From a virus: a stretch of DNA of 26,380 bases. Positions 2,312 through 8,071 of this stretch are shown here, piece by piece. The translations under genes were made by a program, and so were the position numbers. Under the pieces are notes generated by a model. It saw only the letters and a program-made list of their open reading frames with translations. It had not been told where the DNA came from and searched no databases. Where the stretch lies: IMG/VR virus record IMGVR_UViG_3300048031_000234, positions 1 through 26,380 of that record. The stretch is one strand, 5' to 3'. Every line of letters starts with the position of its first letter. Position 1 is the stretch's first letter.

Positions 2312-2325
2312 GGCTTAATTGCCTT
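2312..2325 (-). promoter_or_regulatory. 5'-leader hairpin GGC-AATTAA-GCC of the leftward transcript
   Basis: On the minus strand AAGGCAATTAAGCC lies about 70 bases downstream of the promoter box and just before the AGGAGGT of the first leftward gene. The GGC/GCC arms with a six-base A/T loop recur in the same place in four rightward leaders (3852, 5329, 6358, 7722). The recurrence matters more than the weak 3-bp stem. Confidence 0.5.
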
Positions 2326-2392
2326 GTGTAGTGATTACACTCTATATTATGCAGAAACATGAGTCAAGGAAATAAATTCCGCATTAGCAATA

Positions 2393-2419
2393 CTTATAGT
2401 AAGTATTAGTAAAATTAAT
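2393..2419 (-). promoter_or_regulatory. Composite phage promoter, leftward copy
   Basis: On the minus strand ATTAA-N5-CTAAT-N4-ACTATAAG. The same layout occurs in five rightward intergenic regions, so this is probably the promoter of the leftward operon. The box also sits in a perfect AATACTTA-TAG-TAAGTATT palindrome (2389-2407), which could be an operator. On the plus strand the inverted repeat reads ATTAG-N5-TTAAT (2405-2419) but is followed by GTTAGAAAAG rather than a good ACWATAAG box, so rightward use is unclear. Confidence 0.6.
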
Positions 2420-2482
2420 GTTAGAAAAGTGTTGCATTAGGGTAAATCTTATGTAAATCTAGGCAAAACAAAAGGAGTAACT

Positions 2483-2674
2483 ATGACAAACGACGAATAT
2501 AGCAGATTATTAAAGAAATTAGGTTTTAACTATGCAAGTTTTGCAACCTTTTGTGGGTGCAACAGGTCAACCATCATAAGGCATAGTCAAGGCAAAATAG
2601 ACCCAATTCCACAAGTTTATAAAAACGTGTTGACATGGATGGAAGAAGGCAAGCTTGATAACCCAAATGACTAG
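2483..2674 (+). CDS. Small helix-turn-helix protein, first rightward gene
   Basis: A 63-aa protein that is essentially one HTH domain: EYSRLLKKLGFNYASFATFCGCNRSTIIRHSQGKIDPIP. The segment ASFATFCGCNRSTIIRHSQG reads as helix-turn-helix of the Cro/C1 type, followed by PIPQVYKNVLTWMEEGK, which is typical of phage HTH proteins whose C-terminal helix packs on the domain. A good ribosome binding site (AAAGGAGTAACT) precedes the ATG. It lies across the divergent control region from the leftward operon, so it may regulate that switch. The gene overlaps the next one by eight bases. Confidence 0.65.
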   Translation: MTNDEYSRLLKKLGFNYASFATFCGCNRSTIIRHSQGKIDPIPQVYKNVLTWMEEGKLDNPND

Positions 2675-3239
2675 CTGGATTTGGACACAGGATAAAATAC
2701 TACTAGCTACTAAATTGTGGGGTGATATATATATGTCTCCTGAGCAAATAGCAAAAGAGCTAGGTGTAAGTAAATCAAGCTTAGATAAGTTTGCACATCG
2801 CAATCGCGATATATTGCCCAAGCGTGGTTTTACTAAAAAGAAAAAAGAGTTAAAGCTTGTAGCGCCAAAATTTAAGCAATATAAAAAATATGCGGATATA
2901 GCTGAAATACATAAATGTAGGAAGTTATGGATGGAAGGCTACGGAGTAAGTGAAATATTAGAAATGGCTGATATAAGCTACACCACATTCAATAAAATGC
3001 GTAAATATGCACCTAATCAGTTTCCTAAGCGAAGCAACAAGAGCGAAAATATTATATCCGCAAGCTTTGTGCCAAAACCTGGCAAGGGTTATTTTTTAAA
3101 GTCAGCAGGTGGCTATTTGCATTGCTCTACCAAGACACTAACATTACAGGCAAAACTGGCATGGCGTGGTAACTTAGAGCAAGCAAAAAATGTAATGGAT
3201 AGCAGTAGTTTTAAATTAATACCAATTAGAGAATATTAA
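2667..3239 (+). CDS. GcrA-like DNA-binding protein with an unknown C-terminal half
   Basis: The N-terminus (MTSWIWTQDKILLATKLWGD, then SPEQIAKELGVSKSSLDKFAHRN) matches the pattern of the GcrA-type HTH (W...R...L..LW..G.S...IA..LG.....V..K.HR). A second HTH-like unit follows at about residues 78-105 (CRKLWMEGYGVSEILEMADI, then SYTTFNKMRKYAP), so the protein may have tandem HTH domains. The last 60 residues are unrecognised. I place the start at the ATG at 2667, inside the ATGACTAG overlap with the preceding gene. A TTG 12 bases upstream is possible but less likely. GcrA regulates cell-cycle transcription in alphaproteobacteria by contacting sigma70 at methylated GANTC sites. Whether this phage protein does so is unknown. 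Confidence 0.6.
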   Translation: MTSWIWTQDKILLATKLWGDIYMSPEQIAKELGVSKSSLDKFAHRNRDILPKRGFTKKKKELKLVAPKFKQYKKYADIAEIHKCRKLWMEGYGVSEILEMADISYTTFNKMRKYAPNQFPKRSNKSENIISASFVPKPGKGYFLKSAGGYLHCSTKTLTLQAKLAWRGNLEQAKNVMDSSSFKLIPIREY

Positions 3240-3241
3240 TA

Positions 3242-3796
3242 ATGTTGTGGCAGATATTAAAAGTTAAAAGTGATGCAGTTTTAAATGTGCATGATTATTT
3301 AAGTTTGAATGATATCGAAGTATATACGCCATTTGAGACTAAATATTTAAGGACTAGCAAGCAACAAAGAAAAAAGCGCGTGAGGATTAGTTATGTCGAG
3401 CCATTATTCAAAGGATATTTAATAATAAAAGTTGAAGGTAATACAAACAGGCTAGCTGAATTGATAGCCAAAAATGCTAACATATATGGATTTATAATGC
3501 ATAACGATGCACCATATTGTCTGAGTTTAAATGCTATTGATGATTTAAAAGAGATATATCCAACAGGCTACAAAACCAATAAACATTCAAAAAAAAATAG
3601 ACAAAAAAAATATAAACCTGATGTGTTTAAGCAATACACCCAAGGTGAGTTAGTACAGTTTAAAACAGGTAGTATGGCTGGCTTGCAATTAAGTGTACAA
3701 AGCCAGGTAGATAATAATTTAATACTTATGTTAAATATTTTAGGTACGCCTCGAAAAGTTGAAACAGCACTAGAGAATATAAAGCCTGTTACATAG
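3242..3796 (+). CDS. NusG/RfaH-like transcription antitermination protein
   Basis: A 184-aa protein with the NusG architecture. An NGN domain at about residues 1-105 includes W3, VHDYLSLNDIEVYTPFETKY, a basic segment, and PLFKGYLIIKV, corresponding to the conserved P-x-(F/L)-(F/P)-G-Y-(L/V)-(F/I) core. A basic linker at 112-130 contains KKNRQKK. A KOW-type domain at about 131-184 includes GELVQFKTGSMAGLQLSVQS, then LMLNILGTPRKVE. NusG proteins bind the RNA polymerase clamp and make it processive. Specialised paralogues need a DNA or RNA site for loading. The gene starts two bases after the GcrA-like gene and directly precedes a composite promoter. A phage copy suggests host polymerase is used during infection. 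Confidence 0.8.
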   Translation: MLWQILKVKSDAVLNVHDYLSLNDIEVYTPFETKYLRTSKQQRKKRVRISYVEPLFKGYLIIKVEGNTNRLAELIAKNANIYGFIMHNDAPYCLSLNAIDDLKEIYPTGYKTNKHSKKNRQKKYKPDVFKQYTQGELVQFKTGSMAGLQLSVQSQVDNNLILMLNILGTPRKVETALENIKPVT

Positions 3797-3797
3797 T

Positions 3798-3825
3798 ATT
3801 AGTTTTTCTAATGCTGTACTATAAG
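3798..3825 (+). promoter_or_regulatory. Composite phage promoter, rightward copy 1
   Basis: ATTAG-TTTTT-CTAAT-GCTGT-ACTATAAG, starting two bases after the stop of the NusG-like gene. The arms ATTAG/CTAAT form a perfect 5-bp inverted repeat with a 5-base spacer. No TTGACA-like element lies 16-18 bases upstream of the box. Drives the unit beginning at 3884. Confidence 0.6.
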
Positions 3826-3851
3826 TAGTTTCTATATTAGTCATGTAGATA

Positions 3852-3863
3852 GGCAATTAAGCC
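3852..3863 (+). promoter_or_regulatory. 5'-leader hairpin GGC-AATTAA-GCC
   Basis: Lies 27 bases after the promoter box and just before the AAAGGA of the gene at 3884. The 12 bases are identical to the leftward leader element at 2312-2323. Confidence 0.5.
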
Positions 3864-3883
3864 ACCTAAAAAAAGGAAATAAA

Positions 3884-4288
3884 ATGACAAATAAAATAAC
3901 AGTAAATAAATGGGTTGGTAACTTTATTAATGGTGATTACAATTGCGGCGATGTGGACACACAATGTAGTGCCGGTTGGTACGATTGGTTTTGTAATAAC
4001 AGCAGTCTTGCAAAGAAAACAAAAACACTTGGTAAAAAAGTTATACAATTACTGCCTAGTGCAAAAATTGACGGACATACGATGTATGTTTGGTTTAAAA
4101 ATAACTGCAGTAGTCAAGGAAATTATGATGATTTTCGTTTTGCAGATATAAAAACTGGCGAAATTTTTTATACTATCGCTTTAGCAAATAATACTCATAA
4201 AAATGAAATTTGGGGTCGAGAAAATAATTTTGAGCAGCCTATATTAACTGGGTCGTGGAAAGAAGTTAAAGAATTTTTTGGCATATAA
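3884..4288 (+). CDS. Conserved phage protein of unknown function, 134 aa
   Basis: Carries a distinctive segment, NGDYNCGDVDTQCSAGWYDW (about residues 17-36), followed by FCNNSSLAKKT, and later TMYVWFKNNC, YDDFRFADIKTGEIFYTI and EIWGRENNFEQP. I recall similar proteins in many unrelated phages, always uncharacterised. The combination of conserved C, D, W and G residues suggests a compact fold or a ligand site. A clear ribosome binding site (AAAAGGAAATAAAATG) follows the GGC...GCC leader. It is the first gene of the 3884-5269 unit and so is probably well expressed. No function is assigned. Confidence 0.75.
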   Translation: MTNKITVNKWVGNFINGDYNCGDVDTQCSAGWYDWFCNNSSLAKKTKTLGKKVIQLLPSAKIDGHTMYVWFKNNCSSQGNYDDFRFADIKTGEIFYTIALANNTHKNEIWGRENNFEQPILTGSWKEVKEFFGI

Positions 4289-4299
4289 AGGATTATAAA

Positions 4300-4695
4300 A
4301 TGTTAAATAATGTAGAAATAAAAACAACATTAAACACTGCAATAGTTGAGATGGAACACGCATTTAATTTTTCTCACTGTGGGCTTTATCATAGCAAAAC
4401 ATATAAACTATTTGCTGTCAGTGGTGATTTATCAGCTTATGGTATGTCAAATAGAGCAACAGTTTTGACTATTAAACGCGAGCAAATGGCAAATGTGGAG
4501 TTATATATTGAAACACAAAGAATATGGCATGAAACGCTTGCAATGCTTAGTATTGGGATTTCTAAGGTTCACAAAAAACACGCTGAAACATTTGATAAAC
4601 TTTATCAATTATGGCGTAAATCTAATGCGCTGATGGCTGATATATTTGACAACAAATATTGCTATCGTTCAAAATGGGCACTTTTAAGCAAATAA
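4300..4695 (+). CDS. Unknown helical protein, 131 aa
   Basis: A mostly helical 131-aa protein (VEIKTTLNTAIVEMEHAFNF, later VELYIETQRIWHETLAMLSI and HAETFDKLYQLWRKSNALMA). I recognise no family. It lies 11 bases after the preceding gene behind the leader AAAGGATTATAAAATG, which is repeated before the next gene and, in variant form, before those at 4922 and 5361. It has several Trp and Tyr residues in the C-terminal half and no membrane segment. Confidence 0.7.
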   Translation: MLNNVEIKTTLNTAIVEMEHAFNFSHCGLYHSKTYKLFAVSGDLSAYGMSNRATVLTIKREQMANVELYIETQRIWHETLAMLSIGISKVHKKHAETFDKLYQLWRKSNALMADIFDNKYCYRSKWALLSK

Positions 4696-4711
4696 TAAAA
4701 AGGATTATAAA

Positions 4712-4909
4712 ATGACTGAATTAGAACAAAAAAATGATATATTACTTGATATTACAGAATTGACTGACGATAGCGAGGATATATTAAACGAATTACTTGA
4801 AATTATGACGCTAGACCAATGGTATGAGCTATATAATAGCTTTTATGAGCCGCCCGAAGAACGGTCAGATTGGGATGAGCATAACACAATGCACCCTAAT
4901 TTCCATTAA
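4712..4909 (+). CDS. Small acidic unknown protein, 65 aa
   Basis: A 65-aa, strongly acidic protein (ILLDITELTDDSEDILNELL, then IMTLDQWYELYNSFYEPPEERSDWDEHN). The size and charge are those of DNA-mimic or inhibitor proteins in early phage regions, but nothing specific links it to one. It has the ribosome binding site AAAAGGATTATAAAATG and lies 16 bases after the upstream stop. Confidence 0.65.
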   Translation: MTELEQKNDILLDITELTDDSEDILNELLEIMTLDQWYELYNSFYEPPEERSDWDEHNTMHPNFH

Positions 4910-4921
4910 AGGATTAAAAAA

Positions 4922-5269
4922 ATGATTACAAGAAAAACAGAATATGACTTAGAGCGAATTAATAAATATAACGAAAAGCCAAGATATAAATTGACGTTAA
5001 GGCTTAACTTTTACAAACGTGAGGCAACAAAAAAACCTACTGTTACCGGTTTTTATAGAACATTTTTTGAGGATATCTTATTTGATAGTTTTGAGAAAAG
5101 CCATATTATAAAATACAATAATAATAGTTTTAAATTTGATAATGATATACCAATTGAAACAAGCGGCATTTTATGCGATAAGCAAGCTGCTGATTACCTG
5201 GTTAATTACATTGAAACTAAATTATTAGACTTCTTTGCAAGAAAATATAAAAAAGAATATGCAGTATAA
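4922..5269 (+). CDS. Unknown protein, 115 aa
   Basis: A 115-aa basic protein (MITRKTEYDLERINKYNEKP...) with beta-like alternation in the first two thirds (YKLTLRLNFYKRE, VTGFYRTFFEDILFDSF) and a helical, Lys-rich end (ADYLVNYIETKLLDFFARKYKK). No family recognised. Preceded by AAAGGATTAAAAAAATG. It is the last gene of the 3884-5269 unit, and a new composite promoter begins two bases after its stop. Confidence 0.65.
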   Translation: MITRKTEYDLERINKYNEKPRYKLTLRLNFYKREATKKPTVTGFYRTFFEDILFDSFEKSHIIKYNNNSFKFDNDIPIETSGILCDKQAADYLVNYIETKLLDFFARKYKKEYAV

Positions 5270-5270
5270 C

Positions 5271-5298
5271 ATTAAAAATTTTAATACTGTACAATAAG
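5271..5298 (+). promoter_or_regulatory. Composite phage promoter, rightward copy 2
   Basis: ATTAA-AAATT-TTAAT-ACTGT-ACAATAAG. The arms extend to a longer perfect palindrome (ATTAAAA-A-TTTTAAT). Spacing is identical to copies at 3798 and 7048. Drives the Cys-rich protein at 5361. Confidence 0.6.
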
Positions 5299-5328
5299 CA
5301 ATATTTATGTAATAAAAAAATCAATCAA

Positions 5329-5338
5329 GGCATAAGCC
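5329..5338 (+). promoter_or_regulatory. 5'-leader hairpin GGC-ATAA-GCC
   Basis: Preceded by ATCAA, as in the copy at 7722 (the copy at 6358 has TTCAA). The loop is two bases shorter than in the other copies but the GGC/GCC arms are kept. Lies before the AAAGGATT of the gene at 5361. Confidence 0.45.
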
Positions 5339-5360
5339 ATTTTAAAAAAGGATTATTACA

Positions 5361-6086
5361 ATGCAAAAACAGTCATGTTTAATTTATCGCGGGCCAAGTC
5401 AAATTGACGGCCAGCCCATTATAGCGGCTTTAACGTTTAGCAAAAGAAACAAAAAACTTGGTAAAATGGCAAGCCTGTATATTATTAATGACAATGGAAA
5501 AGGCCCAATTGAGAATAATAGATTGGGACTAGATGTTTCAATTTGTGGCAACTGCCCATTGAAAGGTATAGCTCACAATGGTGATAAAGGAACTGCAAAA
5601 CAGCGCGTTTGTTATGTTTCACTTATCCATGGGCCAAATTCAATCTATAAAGCTTACAAGGCCAACAAATATAAACTTGTCAATGACTTGGAATCGCTTG
5701 GCTCTAATGAAGCTATAAGATTGGGTGCATATGGTGACCCCGCAGCCGTACCAAGTCATATAATTAAAGCGTTAATTAGCAAGGCCAAATCTTACACTGG
5801 CTACACTCATCAGCATGATTTAAAAAGTGTTGATTATTCAAATTGCATGGCAAGCGCTAACTCTTTAAAAGACGCGCGTAAATTTTGGAAGCTTAATATT
5901 CGAACTTTTAGAACTATAAAAGAAAATGACAGCTTGCAACCTAATGAAATTTTATGTCCCGCTACTGATAAGCTAAGAGAAAAGAAAATCACTTGCGCTA
6001 CGTGCAGGCTTTGCAAAGGCTCAAGCATCAAGGCTAAATCTGTTGCTGTTGTGTTGCATGGTAGCGGCGCGAAATGGGCAGCTTAA
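5361..6086 (+). CDS. Conserved Cys-rich phage protein, possible metal site
   Basis: A 241-aa protein of a family I recall from many alphaproteobacterial and marine phages: IYRGPSQIDGQPIIAALTFS at the start, then SICGNCPLKG (about 61-70), VCYVSLIHGP, VRLGAYGDPAA-type motif (here IRLGAYGDPAAVPS), SYTGYTHQH, NCMAS, FRTIKENDSLQPNEILCPAT and finally CATCRLCKG. The spaced cysteines (C-x2-C, C, C, C, C-x2-C-x2-C) suggest a zinc or iron-sulphur site. The family has no assigned activity that I know of. It has its own composite promoter and an AAAAAGGATT ribosome binding site, so it is expressed separately from its neighbours. Confidence 0.75.
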   Translation: MQKQSCLIYRGPSQIDGQPIIAALTFSKRNKKLGKMASLYIINDNGKGPIENNRLGLDVSICGNCPLKGIAHNGDKGTAKQRVCYVSLIHGPNSIYKAYKANKYKLVNDLESLGSNEAIRLGAYGDPAAVPSHIIKALISKAKSYTGYTHQHDLKSVDYSNCMASANSLKDARKFWKLNIRTFRTIKENDSLQPNEILCPATDKLREKKITCATCRLCKGSSIKAKSVAVVLHGSGAKWAA

Positions 6087-6163
6087 TAATAACTAATTAC
6101 TTGCATTTTATAATAAAAAAGCCTATGATTTCATATAGATAATTGATTGAGAAAGGTTAAAAT

Positions 6164-6292
6164 ATGCCAAGCAAAGGACTATATGCAAATATAAACGCGC
6201 GTAAAAAGAAAGGTATCAGTCGAAGTAAAAAGAAGTCAACTATATCACCCAAAGCTTATGCAAATATGAAAAAAGGATTTAAAAAGAAATAA
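6164..6292 (+). CDS. Small Lys-rich conserved phage peptide, 42 aa
   Basis: ATG at 6164 to TAA at 6290-6292, 42 residues: MPSKGLYANINARKKKGIS, then RSKKKSTISPKAYANMKKGF and a KKK end. It resembles a short module (MP.KGLY.NI..RKK.G.SRS..KSTIS..AY.NMK.GF) that I recall both as a stand-alone peptide and as the tail of larger proteins in marine phages and giant viruses. A good ribosome binding site (GAGAAAGG) lies 9 bases upstream. The high positive charge suggests a nucleic-acid or virion-packaged role, not shown. Confidence 0.7.
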   Translation: MPSKGLYANINARKKKGISRSKKKSTISPKAYANMKKGFKKK

Positions 6293-6299
6293 TCGCAAC

Positions 6300-6327
6300 A
6301 TAAGTAACTCTAATTGTTTACTATAAG
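6300..6327 (+). promoter_or_regulatory. Composite phage promoter, rightward copy 3
   Basis: ATAAG-N5-CTAAT-TGTTT-ACTATAAG. The left arm departs from the consensus in one base (ATAAG for ATTAG); the right arm, spacing and box fit. Drives the gene at 6389. Confidence 0.55.
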
Positions 6328-6357
6328 CTAATTTTATATTAACAGAAACGTGTTCAA

Positions 6358-6369
6358 GGCAATCAAGCC
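6358..6369 (+). promoter_or_regulatory. 5'-leader hairpin GGC-AATCAA-GCC
   Basis: Within GTGTTCAAGGCAATCAAGCC, 30 bases after the promoter box and just before GAAAGGAAC of the gene at 6389. The surrounding CAGAAACGTG also appears, slightly changed, at 2352-2361. Confidence 0.5.
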
Positions 6370-6388
6370 GCAATGAAAGGAACAAAAA

Positions 6389-6883
6389 ATGCAAGTAATT
6401 AACAGCAAAGAATATAAAGTTAAGCAGGGGCTAGACGTACGATGTCACGACAACAAGGCGGGGTTTTGTGTAAGTTTTAATAATAATGTAGAAGTTAGCG
6501 TACAAATAGGAGAGGGCAATTATCATAGTAATAGACTTGTTTGTGCTGACGAAAAGCAAAAGGAAAAGCGTAGAAAGGCATGGAAAGATAGCGATTATTA
6601 CAAGGGCAGGACATCGCCAAATTGTGAGACTGCGATACTTTTTAAAGGCAAGTTCTTAAGCTACAAAGGTCACGATGTTCAAGGTTGGCAAACTATGGAG
6701 CAATTAGTTGAAACATTGGTTTATGCAATGAATTTACCAAATGCGCCAGAAAGAAAAGATTTAACTAATACTATAGATGATATGTCACTTGTGCCAAGAC
6801 TAATAGAATTTGGGTGGGCTGTTGCGGGTAATAAAACAGATTGTCCAGAGCAAATAATTGAAATGATAAAGGAACAAGATTGA
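6389..6883 (+). CDS. Conserved phage protein of unknown function, 164 aa
   Basis: A 164-aa protein whose core GFCVSFNNNVEVSVQIGEGNYHS (residues about 26-48) resembles a recurrent but uncharacterised phage family (GF.VSF.NG..VSVQ.G.GNYC.N). The next part is basic (EKQKEKRRKAWKDSDYYKGR), then CETAILFKGKFLSYKG, where a gene product-specific residue set (alternating hydrophobic) suggests a beta sheet, and a helical C-terminus. It has its own composite promoter, leader hairpin and ribosome binding site (GAAAGGAAC). Function unknown. Confidence 0.7.
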   Translation: MQVINSKEYKVKQGLDVRCHDNKAGFCVSFNNNVEVSVQIGEGNYHSNRLVCADEKQKEKRRKAWKDSDYYKGRTSPNCETAILFKGKFLSYKGHDVQGWQTMEQLVETLVYAMNLPNAPERKDLTNTIDDMSLVPRLIEFGWAVAGNKTDCPEQIIEMIKEQD

Positions 6884-6951
6884 TGACTTATAACGACAAG
6901 CACGAATGGGCAGGTAAGGTTATAAGAGCGAATGAGTGTTTTAATAGATAA
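6883..6951 (+). CDS. Possible 22-aa mini-protein coupled to the upstream gene
   Basis: A 22-codon frame (MTYNDKHEWAGKVIRANECF, then NR) starts in a TGATG overlap with the stop of the 164-aa gene and ends TAA at 6949-6951. The overlap would allow reinitiation, and the upstream AAAGGAACAAGATTG provides a possible ribosome binding site. It may be a decayed end or chance; nothing else supports it. Confidence 0.3.
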   Translation: MTYNDKHEWAGKVIRANECFNR

Positions 6952-7047
6952 CTAATAGATTATATATATATAATTAACAGCTCATTTAATTTGTTTTATT
7001 AATATAAACTTGCGGCTTTATGGGGGTTATTATCTAAAATAGATAGT

Positions 7048-7075
7048 ATTAGGTTTATTAATGCTATACAATAAG
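7048..7075 (+). promoter_or_regulatory. Composite phage promoter, rightward copy 4
   Basis: ATTAG-GTTTA-TTAAT-GCTAT-ACAATAAG, matching the 5-5-5-5-8 spacing exactly. The leader downstream lacks the GGC...GCC hairpin found in the other five units. Drives 7125 and 7338. Upstream, 6952-7047 is A/T-rich with a TA run near 6961-6971 and shows no gene. Confidence 0.6.
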
Positions 7076-7124
7076 CTTATTATATGGTTTATTATGGTTA
7101 TTAGAAACAAAAAGGGATTTATAA

Positions 7125-7334
7125 ATGTTTACGATTAAAGCTAAAATTATTGATGATACTATCGCCAGTAATGTTAAAAGCATTATGCAAGCTTGGAAAA
7201 GCAGTGAGCGTTATAACATTACAATCAATAAAGAACAAAACTGTTTTGAGCTACAGCCTTGCGGCAACACTTGGCATTACCACCTAGGGCACCTATTGGC
7301 CTCTGCTGGCTTTAAAATGAGCGAAGCGGATTAA
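7125..7334 (+). CDS. Small unknown protein, 69 aa
   Basis: A 69-aa protein (MFTIKAKIIDDTIASNVKSI...ELQPCGNTWHYHLGHLLASA) of alternating beta and helix character with a cluster of aromatic residues and His near the C-terminus. No family recognised. It has the ribosome binding site AAAAAGGGATTTATAAATG and follows a composite promoter at 7048-7075. The membrane peptide begins four bases after its stop. Confidence 0.65.
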   Translation: MFTIKAKIIDDTIASNVKSIMQAWKSSERYNITINKEQNCFELQPCGNTWHYHLGHLLASAGFKMSEAD

Positions 7335-7337
7335 ATC

Positions 7338-7430
7338 ATGAAAGCGACACTAAAAACAATATTTGACCTAGTCTTGATGGCCGCATTCGTAGTTGTCTCA
7401 ACTGCTTGGTTTATAGTCTTAACAGTTTAA
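7338..7430 (+). CDS. 30-aa single-pass membrane peptide
   Basis: ATG at 7338 to TAA at 7428-7430, 30 residues: MKATLKTIFDLVLMAAFVVV, then STAWFIVLTV. Almost the whole chain from residue 8 is hydrophobic, one transmembrane helix with a short positively charged N-terminus. It lies three bases after the 69-aa gene and is followed 15 bases later by an intrinsic terminator, so it closes its transcript. Small one-helix peptides in phages can be holins, spanins' partners or regulators of membrane enzymes; the lack of a neighbouring endolysin makes a lysis role uncertain. Confidence 0.5.
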   Translation: MKATLKTIFDLVLMAAFVVVSTAWFIVLTV

Positions 7431-7444
7431 GAGGGGGAATAATC

Positions 7445-7468
7445 GCCAGGCTTCAATGCTTGGCTTTT
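7445..7468 (+). terminator. Intrinsic terminator after the 7125-7430 unit
   Basis: Arms GCCAGGC (7445-7451) and GCTTGGC (7458-7464), seven pairs with one G-U, a six-base loop, then TTTT. It lies 15 bases after the stop of the membrane peptide gene. Confidence 0.7.
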
Positions 7469-7483
7469 ATTTGTACTGTAAAA

Positions 7484-7528
7484 GAACAAACCATGAACAA
7501 ACGTTCGCTATCTGTTCACCCTTTGTTC
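7484..7528. repeat. 11-bp phased GAACAAAC/GTTC box array, first block
   Basis: GAACAAAC at 7484-7491 and 7495-7502, then GTTC at 7503, 7514 and 7525. The GTTC units share the context GTTCRC(C)...TTT. The spacing of 11 puts the boxes on one face of the helix. Confidence 0.55.
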
Positions 7529-7575
7529 GCCTTATATCTTGGCTTCTGAGAGAGTTTTAAGCTTTTTATATAGTA

Positions 7576-7603
7576 GGGTAAGTAAAACCTTGAAACCTTA
7601 CCC
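7576..7603. repeat. Perfect 7-bp inverted repeat
   Basis: GGGTAAG and CTTACCC separated by 14 bases, with no T run on either side, so probably not a terminator. Confidence 0.5.
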
Positions 7604-7617
7604 ACGCGGCTTAAATC

Positions 7618-7645
7618 GCTCATATGAGCCGTTCACCTTTTGTTC
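7618..7645. repeat. 12-bp palindrome plus second GTTC pair
   Basis: GCTCATATGAGC (7618-7629) is a perfect palindrome. It is followed by GTTCACCTTTTGTTC (7631-7645), two GTTC boxes spaced 11 bases, closely matching GTTCACCCTTTGTTC at 7514-7528. Confidence 0.55.
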
Positions 7646-7667
7646 TTTTGCTACTGGCGCGGCTAAC

Positions 7668-7694
7668 ATTAGTAATATTAATGTTGACTATAAG
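7668..7694 (+). promoter_or_regulatory. Composite phage promoter, rightward copy 5
   Basis: ATTAG-TAATA-TTAAT-GTTG-ACTATAAG, with the four-base spacer also seen in the leftward copy. It is the last copy found in the rightward direction; none was seen among the structural genes. Confidence 0.6.
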
Positions 7695-7721
7695 TAGCTA
7701 AAAATGCTAATACTTAATCAA

Positions 7722-7733
7722 GGCAATAAAGCC
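7722..7733 (+). promoter_or_regulatory. 5'-leader hairpin GGC-AATAAA-GCC
   Basis: Preceded by ATCAA and followed by ATTTTTT, 27 bases after the promoter box. Same element as at 3852, 5329, 6358 and, on the minus strand, 2312. Confidence 0.5.
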
Positions 7734-7753: not shown

Positions 7754-8071
7754 ATGCAACAGAAAGAAAAGACAATGTATGGGCATAGTAACTATAATTA
7801 TTTCGTAAAAATATATTATATTGAAAACAATAATAAAGCGAATGAAACATTCATTTTTGACAATCGCAAAGAATATAGTAAATTCTTTGATTATGTGCTA
7901 AAGCTAAGGCATAACAGGGACAGCAACATTTATGATATAGCTTATGGGCATGCGTATAAGGTAGGCACAACTAAAGACGCTATTAACAAATTGTTAGACT
8001 GGGGCGACGTGTTACTACCTAGCGAAAAAAAAGATATTGATGTTGTAAATATGGAATTTGAAGAAGCATAA
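7754..8071 (+). CDS. Unknown protein, 98-105 aa
   Basis: A protein of 105 aa from the ATG at 7754, or 98 aa from the ATG at 7775 (MYGHSNYNYFVKIYYIENNN). The second start is favoured: the first ATG has no ribosome binding site and sits in the loop of a 6-bp hairpin (GTTGCA-AAAA-TGCAAC, 7745-7760), while AGAAAG precedes the second. The sequence is beta-like at the start (FVKIYYIE, ETFIFDNRKEY), helical in the middle, with the segment DIAYGHAYKVGTTKDAINKL, and acidic at the end. No family recognised. It is the only gene between promoter copy 5 and the terminator at 8121. Confidence 0.65.
   Translation: MQQKEKTMYGHSNYNYFVKIYYIENNNKANETFIFDNRKEYSKFFDYVLKLRHNRDSNIYDIAYGHAYKVGTTKDAINKLLDWGDVLLPSEKKDIDVVNMEFEEA

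Follow-up and report, generated by a model that had tools for sequence, protein, structure and literature searches.

A putative promoter-operator element repeated at six sites in the genome of an uncultivated marine phage lineage

At the middle promoters of phage T4, the MotA box, (t/a)(t/a)(t/a)TGCTTtA, is located 12 ± 1 base pairs (bp) from the -10 element (PMC2988021), and Cluster K mycobacteriophages carry a start-associated sequence (SAS), the 13-bp GGGATAGGAGCCC (PMC3203893). The element described here, a palindrome followed by a -10-like box, is present in six copies on a linear IMG/VR virus record (IMGVR_UViG_3300048031_000234) of 26,380 bases, which was analysed as a whole and is called the window below; the phage lineage that carries it is marine and uncultivated. 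The six-site element is real and conserved. It is predicted to be a lineage-specific promoter-operator that resembles known phage control sites and is not one of them. A putative promoter class of this lineage is thereby defined from sequence alone, and the proposed operator is precise enough for in vitro testing. We lean towards reading the six sites as host sigma70 promoters in which the palindrome would be the operator for a dimeric, most likely activating, regulator.

The six sites and their conservation

An earlier note on this DNA had proposed six copies of the pattern ATTAR-N5-YTAAT-N4/5-ACWATAAG. Exact search of the window returned five matches, at 2393-2419 on the minus strand and at 3798-3825, 5271-5298, 7048-7075, and 7668-7694 on the plus strand, with a mean count of 0.00 in 100 dinucleotide shuffles. 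The sixth site, 6300-6327, has ATAAG instead of ATTAR as its left arm and falls outside that consensus, but it is a real copy by position and box, and its counterpart in the relative L021 carries ATTAG as left arm. As first bounded, all six elements are intergenic, and every one precedes a gene that is read in the same direction (six of six, as the note had said). The motif is not as frequent inside genes or in shuffled sequence as between genes. Intergenic DNA makes up 6% of the window and 18% of its first 8.3 kb. The box ACWATAAG occurs six times in all on the two strands of the window, each time within one of the six sites. About five occurrences are expected there from base composition alone, so the box by itself is uninformative, and the evidence lies in the combination and its spacing.

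The inverted repeat with its near-fixed spacing is present as described, but it is longer than the 15 bp with 5-bp arms first recognized. The full dyad is 21 bp, ARYATTAR-N5-YTAATRYT, with 8-bp half-sites; at 3795 and at 5268 the 8-bp left arm shares bases with the preceding gene's stop codon. Counted from the full right arm, the gap to the box is 1 or 2 bp (previously given as a 4/5-bp spacing), and at 2393, compared with most relatives, a deletion has left a gap of 1 bp. A half-site matrix built from the six sites ranks the same six as 1-6 in the window, with scores of 14.6-22.1, and the next palindrome scores 13.3. The weakest copy is 6297 (14.6); since a best score of at least 14.5 was reached in three of 20 shuffled windows, this copy counts through its position and box and not through its score. 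In G001, a relative of 36.7 kb and near full length that was used for motif ranking and gene-list comparison, the top six are again these sites, while no outstanding palindromes were found with this matrix in G002, G005, G007, or G009. When dyads were counted without any motif, ATTA-N7-TAAT came first, in five of eight intergenic segments of the window and four of seven of G001 (next best, two). In the sister phages, no dyad was present in more than three intergenic segments and nothing comparable was seen.

The inverted repeat could act at the RNA level, with a hairpin that serves as terminator, leader, or processing site, and not as DNA, and some copies fold well (3795: -6.4 kcal/mol). The copy at 2402, however, does not fold and sits between divergent genes, a T-run is absent after the repeat, and the near-fixed distance to the box points to DNA. 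A hairpin role was rejected on the unfolded 2402 copy and is very improbable; half-sites that are not always complementary, as at 2402, are expected of DNA half-sites.

Orthologous sites were collected by blastn with the element and 60 bases of either flank; presence of the motif was no condition. The search gave three to nine relatives for each of the six sites. Variable positions numbered 0/48 in the arm core, 2/48 in the box, 8/48 in the degenerate part of the arms, 5/30 in the N5 centre, and 114/720 (16%) in the flanks. The difference between arm core plus box and flanks is significant (Fisher p=4e-5), with the counts not being independent events, as the relatives compared are closely related. 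Where the arms differ, the substitutions are, with few exceptions, R/R, Y/Y, or T/A at degenerate positions and stay within the consensus. A scan of 2.9 million viral contigs with the strict pattern returned 17 stretches, 12 of them from this lineage; the other five are isolated single matches on contigs without similarity to it. Looser scans gave, among the matches listed, mainly chance matches. The motif is absent from the sister phages G002 and G005, whose terminase protein is 99-100% identical (G005 99%).

Promoter character and candidate regulators

The earlier note had described the box as -10-like without an apparent -35, and both observations held. The hexamers (TACWAT) have moderate -10 scores of 0.2 to 4.8, and for the -35 the six sites reach at best -4.1 to 0.3, around the random mean of -0.85 (standard deviation 2.56). 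By comparison, a -35 score of 6.5 was obtained for the canonical promoter on the minus strand at 2367-2339, which follows the leftward composite promoter at a distance of about 60 bp. With TACWAT as the -10 (-12 to -7), the palindrome would span -34 to -14.

The box had also been likened to promoters of single-subunit phage RNA polymerases, as ACTATA resembles the T7/SP6 core. This likeness was not supported: a 1-bp change of spacing is tolerated, and the core varies (ACTATAAG, ACAATAAG, ACCATAAG). No polymerase gene was seen in the gene list of near-full-length G001, which includes DnaB, SSB, recombination, and lysis-type proteins named by inspection. A search for Pfam RNA_pol in 20 related records gave no match, a weak test as the control matched nowhere, and the largest proteins of the window had no polymerase match in Pfam. 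A T7/SP6-type promoter was rejected on the variable spacing and the polymerase gene not seen, and is scarcely credible. Since no polymerase gene was seen, the host RNA polymerase is the likely reader of the six sites.

The mechanism that we favour is built on what was observed directly, namely the element, its geometry, conservation, and lineage restriction, the missing -35, and the gene context. Host RNA polymerase with sigma70 would read the -10 TACWAT (within TACWATAAG) in the absence of a -35. A control protein probably docks on the palindrome: the 21-bp operator at about -34 to -14 would be bound by a dimeric or two-headed helix-turn-helix (HTH) regulator, most likely encoded by the phage and made early from the divergent operon. 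Occupying the place of the contact between sigma region 4 and the -35, the regulator would activate the units, as T4 MotA does at middle promoters. Activation is preferred over repression chiefly because all six -35s are missing.

The divergent early operon, 2483-3796, consists of three genes coding for a 63-aa HTH protein, a GcrA-like multi-HTH protein of 190 aa, and a NusG paralog. The 63-aa protein has weak matches to Pfam HTH_36 (E=0.014), phrog_8898 (E=0.002), and phrog_14076 (E=0.03). The AlphaFold2 model of the 190-aa protein has a mean predicted local distance difference test score of 73 and a predicted template modelling score of 0.30, so its single domains alone are usable. HTH1 is predicted to have the GcrA-type DNA-binding fold: Foldseek aligned it with the GcrA DNA-binding domain (5yiv) at a root-mean-square deviation of 1.2 A over 44 columns (TMt 0.84, 36% identity, E=0.45), and the family profile finds GcrA in hmmsearch with E=0.008, the match being confined to the N-terminal part. 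The C-terminal half is modelled as HTH2 followed by a sheet-helix domain, which resembles AP2 by eye. In the NusG paralog, the NGN domain was recognized by PF02357 (E=7e-10, residues 2-102) and the protein by the antiterminator family phrog_6386 (E=4e-8), with further profile matches to Spt5, NusG, and RfaH. At the sensitivity used, no NusG relatives were found in phage records and GTDB genomes. The NusG paralog gene adjoins the GcrA-like multi-HTH gene also in G001, G002, G005, and G007-G009.

With GcrA-like and NusG-like genes nearby, the element is a candidate for joint control of initiation and elongation. A GcrA-type phage regulator could replace the -35 contact of host sigma70 and work together with the NusG paralog, the box being read jointly by sigma and regulator. 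Such an arrangement is distinctly unlikely; if true, one early operon would take over initiation and elongation of the middle genes.

Several observations weigh against activation of sigma70 promoters by a regulator from this operon. The -10s are weak (TACTAT 2.7; GACTAT 0.2 at 7668), and the conserved AAG following the hexamer is not accounted for by sigma70. The box resembles a half-site (A..ATAAG), which may account for the AAG. A weak promoter under repression would also fit the missing -35, and so would a host whose -35 preference differs from that of E. coli. The GcrA-like protein of G002 and G005 is 56-58% identical and has nearly the same recognition helices, yet the palindromes are absent; likewise, the 63-aa protein of L340-L345 is 50-54% identical with very similar recognition helices, and these phages are without the palindrome set. 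Neither HTH protein is thus a clean match, and both are candidates for the binder. Of the suggestion that the palindrome stands in place of the -35 for a phage HTH activator, the fixed palindrome, the missing -35, and the HTH genes nearby remain, but neither HTH protein tracks the palindrome cleanly.

The main rival, a serious one though unlikely, is that the palindrome is a repressor operator: a Cro-like protein, of which the 63-aa HTH protein is an example, would bind at -34 to -14 and turn off the early units. Overlap of a palindrome with a promoter is typical of repressors. The small HTH protein is the product of the first gene of the divergent operon, and the 2402 palindrome lies also directly upstream (about 60 bp) of its gene on the opposite strand, as for an autoregulator. 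In the distant phage L342, the sole 13/14 core match in 16 kb is 56 bp upstream of the 63-aa homolog. This match, however, overlaps a small open reading frame, and its counterparts in L344 and L345 are just 11/14. Six promoters without a -35 would also be weak unaided. No integrase was noticed in the G001 gene list, in which no profile search for it was made, and an immunity repressor is thus without sign.

The regulator could be a host protein. It is highly doubtful that the phage borrows a host regulator to bind the palindrome, in the manner of the CtrA sites of other alphaproteobacterial phages (PMC9437464). Borrowing would agree with the lack of clean co-variation between the palindrome and any phage HTH protein and with four conserved GTTC-N7-GTTC sites of the phage described below. 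On the other hand, the sister phages, presumably with similar hosts, are without the sites, and the dyad spacing is not that of CtrA. With no occurrence of TTAA-N7-TTAA in the window, a CtrA site was rejected for its wrong spacing.

In G005, arrangements of the type TTG...-16/17-TATNNT precede the early units (picked by eye, with a bias toward a good -35). G002 and G005 without the element, and G005 with -35/-10-like promoters, offer a natural example of phages rewiring early gene control.

Other features of the early region

Table 1. Positions of the composite sites, start-associated elements, and candidate regulatory genes in the window
Feature	Position	Strand	Sequence or remark
Palindrome, putative operator	2402..2422	-	AACATTAA-TTTTA-CTAATACT; kept in L006-L012
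-10-like box, leftward (replication) unit	2393..2400	-	ACTATAAG; final G is A in some relatives
Palindrome	3795..3815	+	AGTATTAG-TTTTT-CTAATGCT
-10-like box	3818..3825	+	ACTATAAG; upstream of gene 3884-4288
Palindrome	5268..5288	+	AACATTAA-AAATT-TTAATACT
-10-like box	5291..5298	+	ACAATAAG; upstream of gene 5361-6086
Palindrome, divergent copy	6297..6317	+	AACATAAG-TAACT-CTAATTGT; left arm in relatives AGTATAAG or AGTATTAG
-10-like box	6320..6327	+	ACTATAAG; upstream of gene 6389-6883
Palindrome	7045..7065	+	AGTATTAG-GTTTA-TTAATGCT
-10-like box	7068..7075	+	ACAATAAG; upstream of gene 7125-7334
Palindrome	7665..7685	+	AACATTAG-TAATA-TTAATGTT
-10-like box	7687..7694	+	ACTATAAG (ACCATAAG in relatives); upstream of gene 7754-8071
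Canonical sigma70-like promoter, leftward unit	2339..2367	-	TTGACT-N17-TAGAGT; TTGACA in several relatives
Start-associated element	2312..2324	-	AGGCAATTAAGCC; separate element
Start-associated element	3851..3863	+	AGGCAATTAAGCC; separate element
Start-associated element	5328..5338	+	AGGCATAAGCC; separate element
Start-associated element	6357..6369	+	AGGCAATCAAGCC; separate element
Start-associated element	7721..7733	+	AGGCAATAAAGCC; separate element; start codon unassigned by automatic rule
63-aa HTH protein, candidate regulator	2483..2674	+	first gene of operon; weak HTH matches
190-aa protein, candidate regulator	2667..3239	+	two HTH domains and C-terminal sheet-helix domain; AlphaFold2, Foldseek, hmmsearch
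NusG paralog, candidate elongation factor	3242..3796	+	last gene of operon; PF02357, phrog_6386, profile matches

A secondary palindrome, CGCATTAG-CAATA-CTTATAGT, is located at 2380-2400 of the window, with the leftward promoter's -10-like box as its right arm. It scores 13.1 (12.0 in G001) and is a possible second operator.

A second conserved element, AGGCAATNAAGCC (AGGCATAAGCC once), was found downstream of five of the six promoters, just before the ribosome-binding site. In the window, G001, and more distant phages it usually ends 17-23 nucleotides before the start codon, where this is assignable. The element is present also in L008, L009, L010, L342, L344, L345, L348, G001, and G005, including phages without the composite promoter, and before genes within operons. 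No stem longer than 3 bp (GGC/GCC) forms in it. A role as a NusG recruitment signal (ops- or LoaP-like) was rejected, as AGGCAATNAAGCC occurs within operons and in G020 and G021, both partial records, without a detectable NusG gene. On the same grounds it is tied to neither NusG nor the promoter, and by its distribution AGGCAATNAAGCC is classed as a start-associated sequence independent of the promoter. The SAS of Cluster K (PMC3203893) has a comparable placement and a different sequence.

Four GTTC-N7-GTTC sites lie within about 160 bp at 7484-7645 of the window and are conserved in G001, L008, L009, L351, and L353. This form we take to be the LexA box of Alphaproteobacteria, which suggests an alphaproteobacterial host and a control region of LexA or iteron type. 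Between these LexA-type sites, the intergenic stretch 7555-7630 has complementary arms, GGTAAG...CTTACC and GCTCATATGAGC, most of which G001 retains, and may encode a structured RNA or be an origin.

Comparison with known control systems

HTH1 of the phage 190-aa protein is predicted to share the DNA-binding fold of GcrA, the sigma70 cofactor of Alphaproteobacteria, but the phage protein is modelled with a second HTH and a C-terminal domain of another kind. GANTC methylation sites, at which GcrA acts, are no part of the palindrome or the box. The CtrA-controlled promoters of alphaproteobacterial phages (PMC9437464) have repeated palindromic sites in intergenic regions in common with the window; they are, however, TTAA-N7-TTAA sites of a host regulator, a motif different from the one found here.

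The 17-bp dyads of Cluster O mycobacteriophages (PMC4351075) are, like the present palindromes, conserved across the phage with no function assigned. Their 34 copies differ in that about one third are inside genes and no -10-like box goes with them. Similar in layout are the extended start-associated sequence (ESAS) and SAS of Cluster K (PMC3203893), where imperfect inverted repeats are followed, closer to the start codon, by another short repeat, and both are repeated before several genes of one lineage. The ESAS, though, consists of 17-bp repeats with a variable spacer and other sequences, whereas the repeat described here has a fixed N5 and a -10-like box, and the gene-start element of this lineage occurs also without the palindrome.

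The middle promoters of T4 (PMC2988021) have several features in common with the favoured mechanism: a host sigma70 -10, a phage element replacing the -35 (in T4 centred near -30), tolerance of a 1-bp variation in the distance to the -10, and several copies before early/middle units. MotA and AsiA had no match in general family searches, with no dedicated search of a complete genome made. Compared by eye, ARYATTAR-N5-YTAATRYT does not fit the MotA-box consensus. MotA binds its short, non-palindromic box as a monomer, while the element here is a palindrome of 21 bp, with its centre at about -24, and has a conserved 8-bp box. By this comparison it would not belong to the class of T4 middle promoters, but it may work like them.

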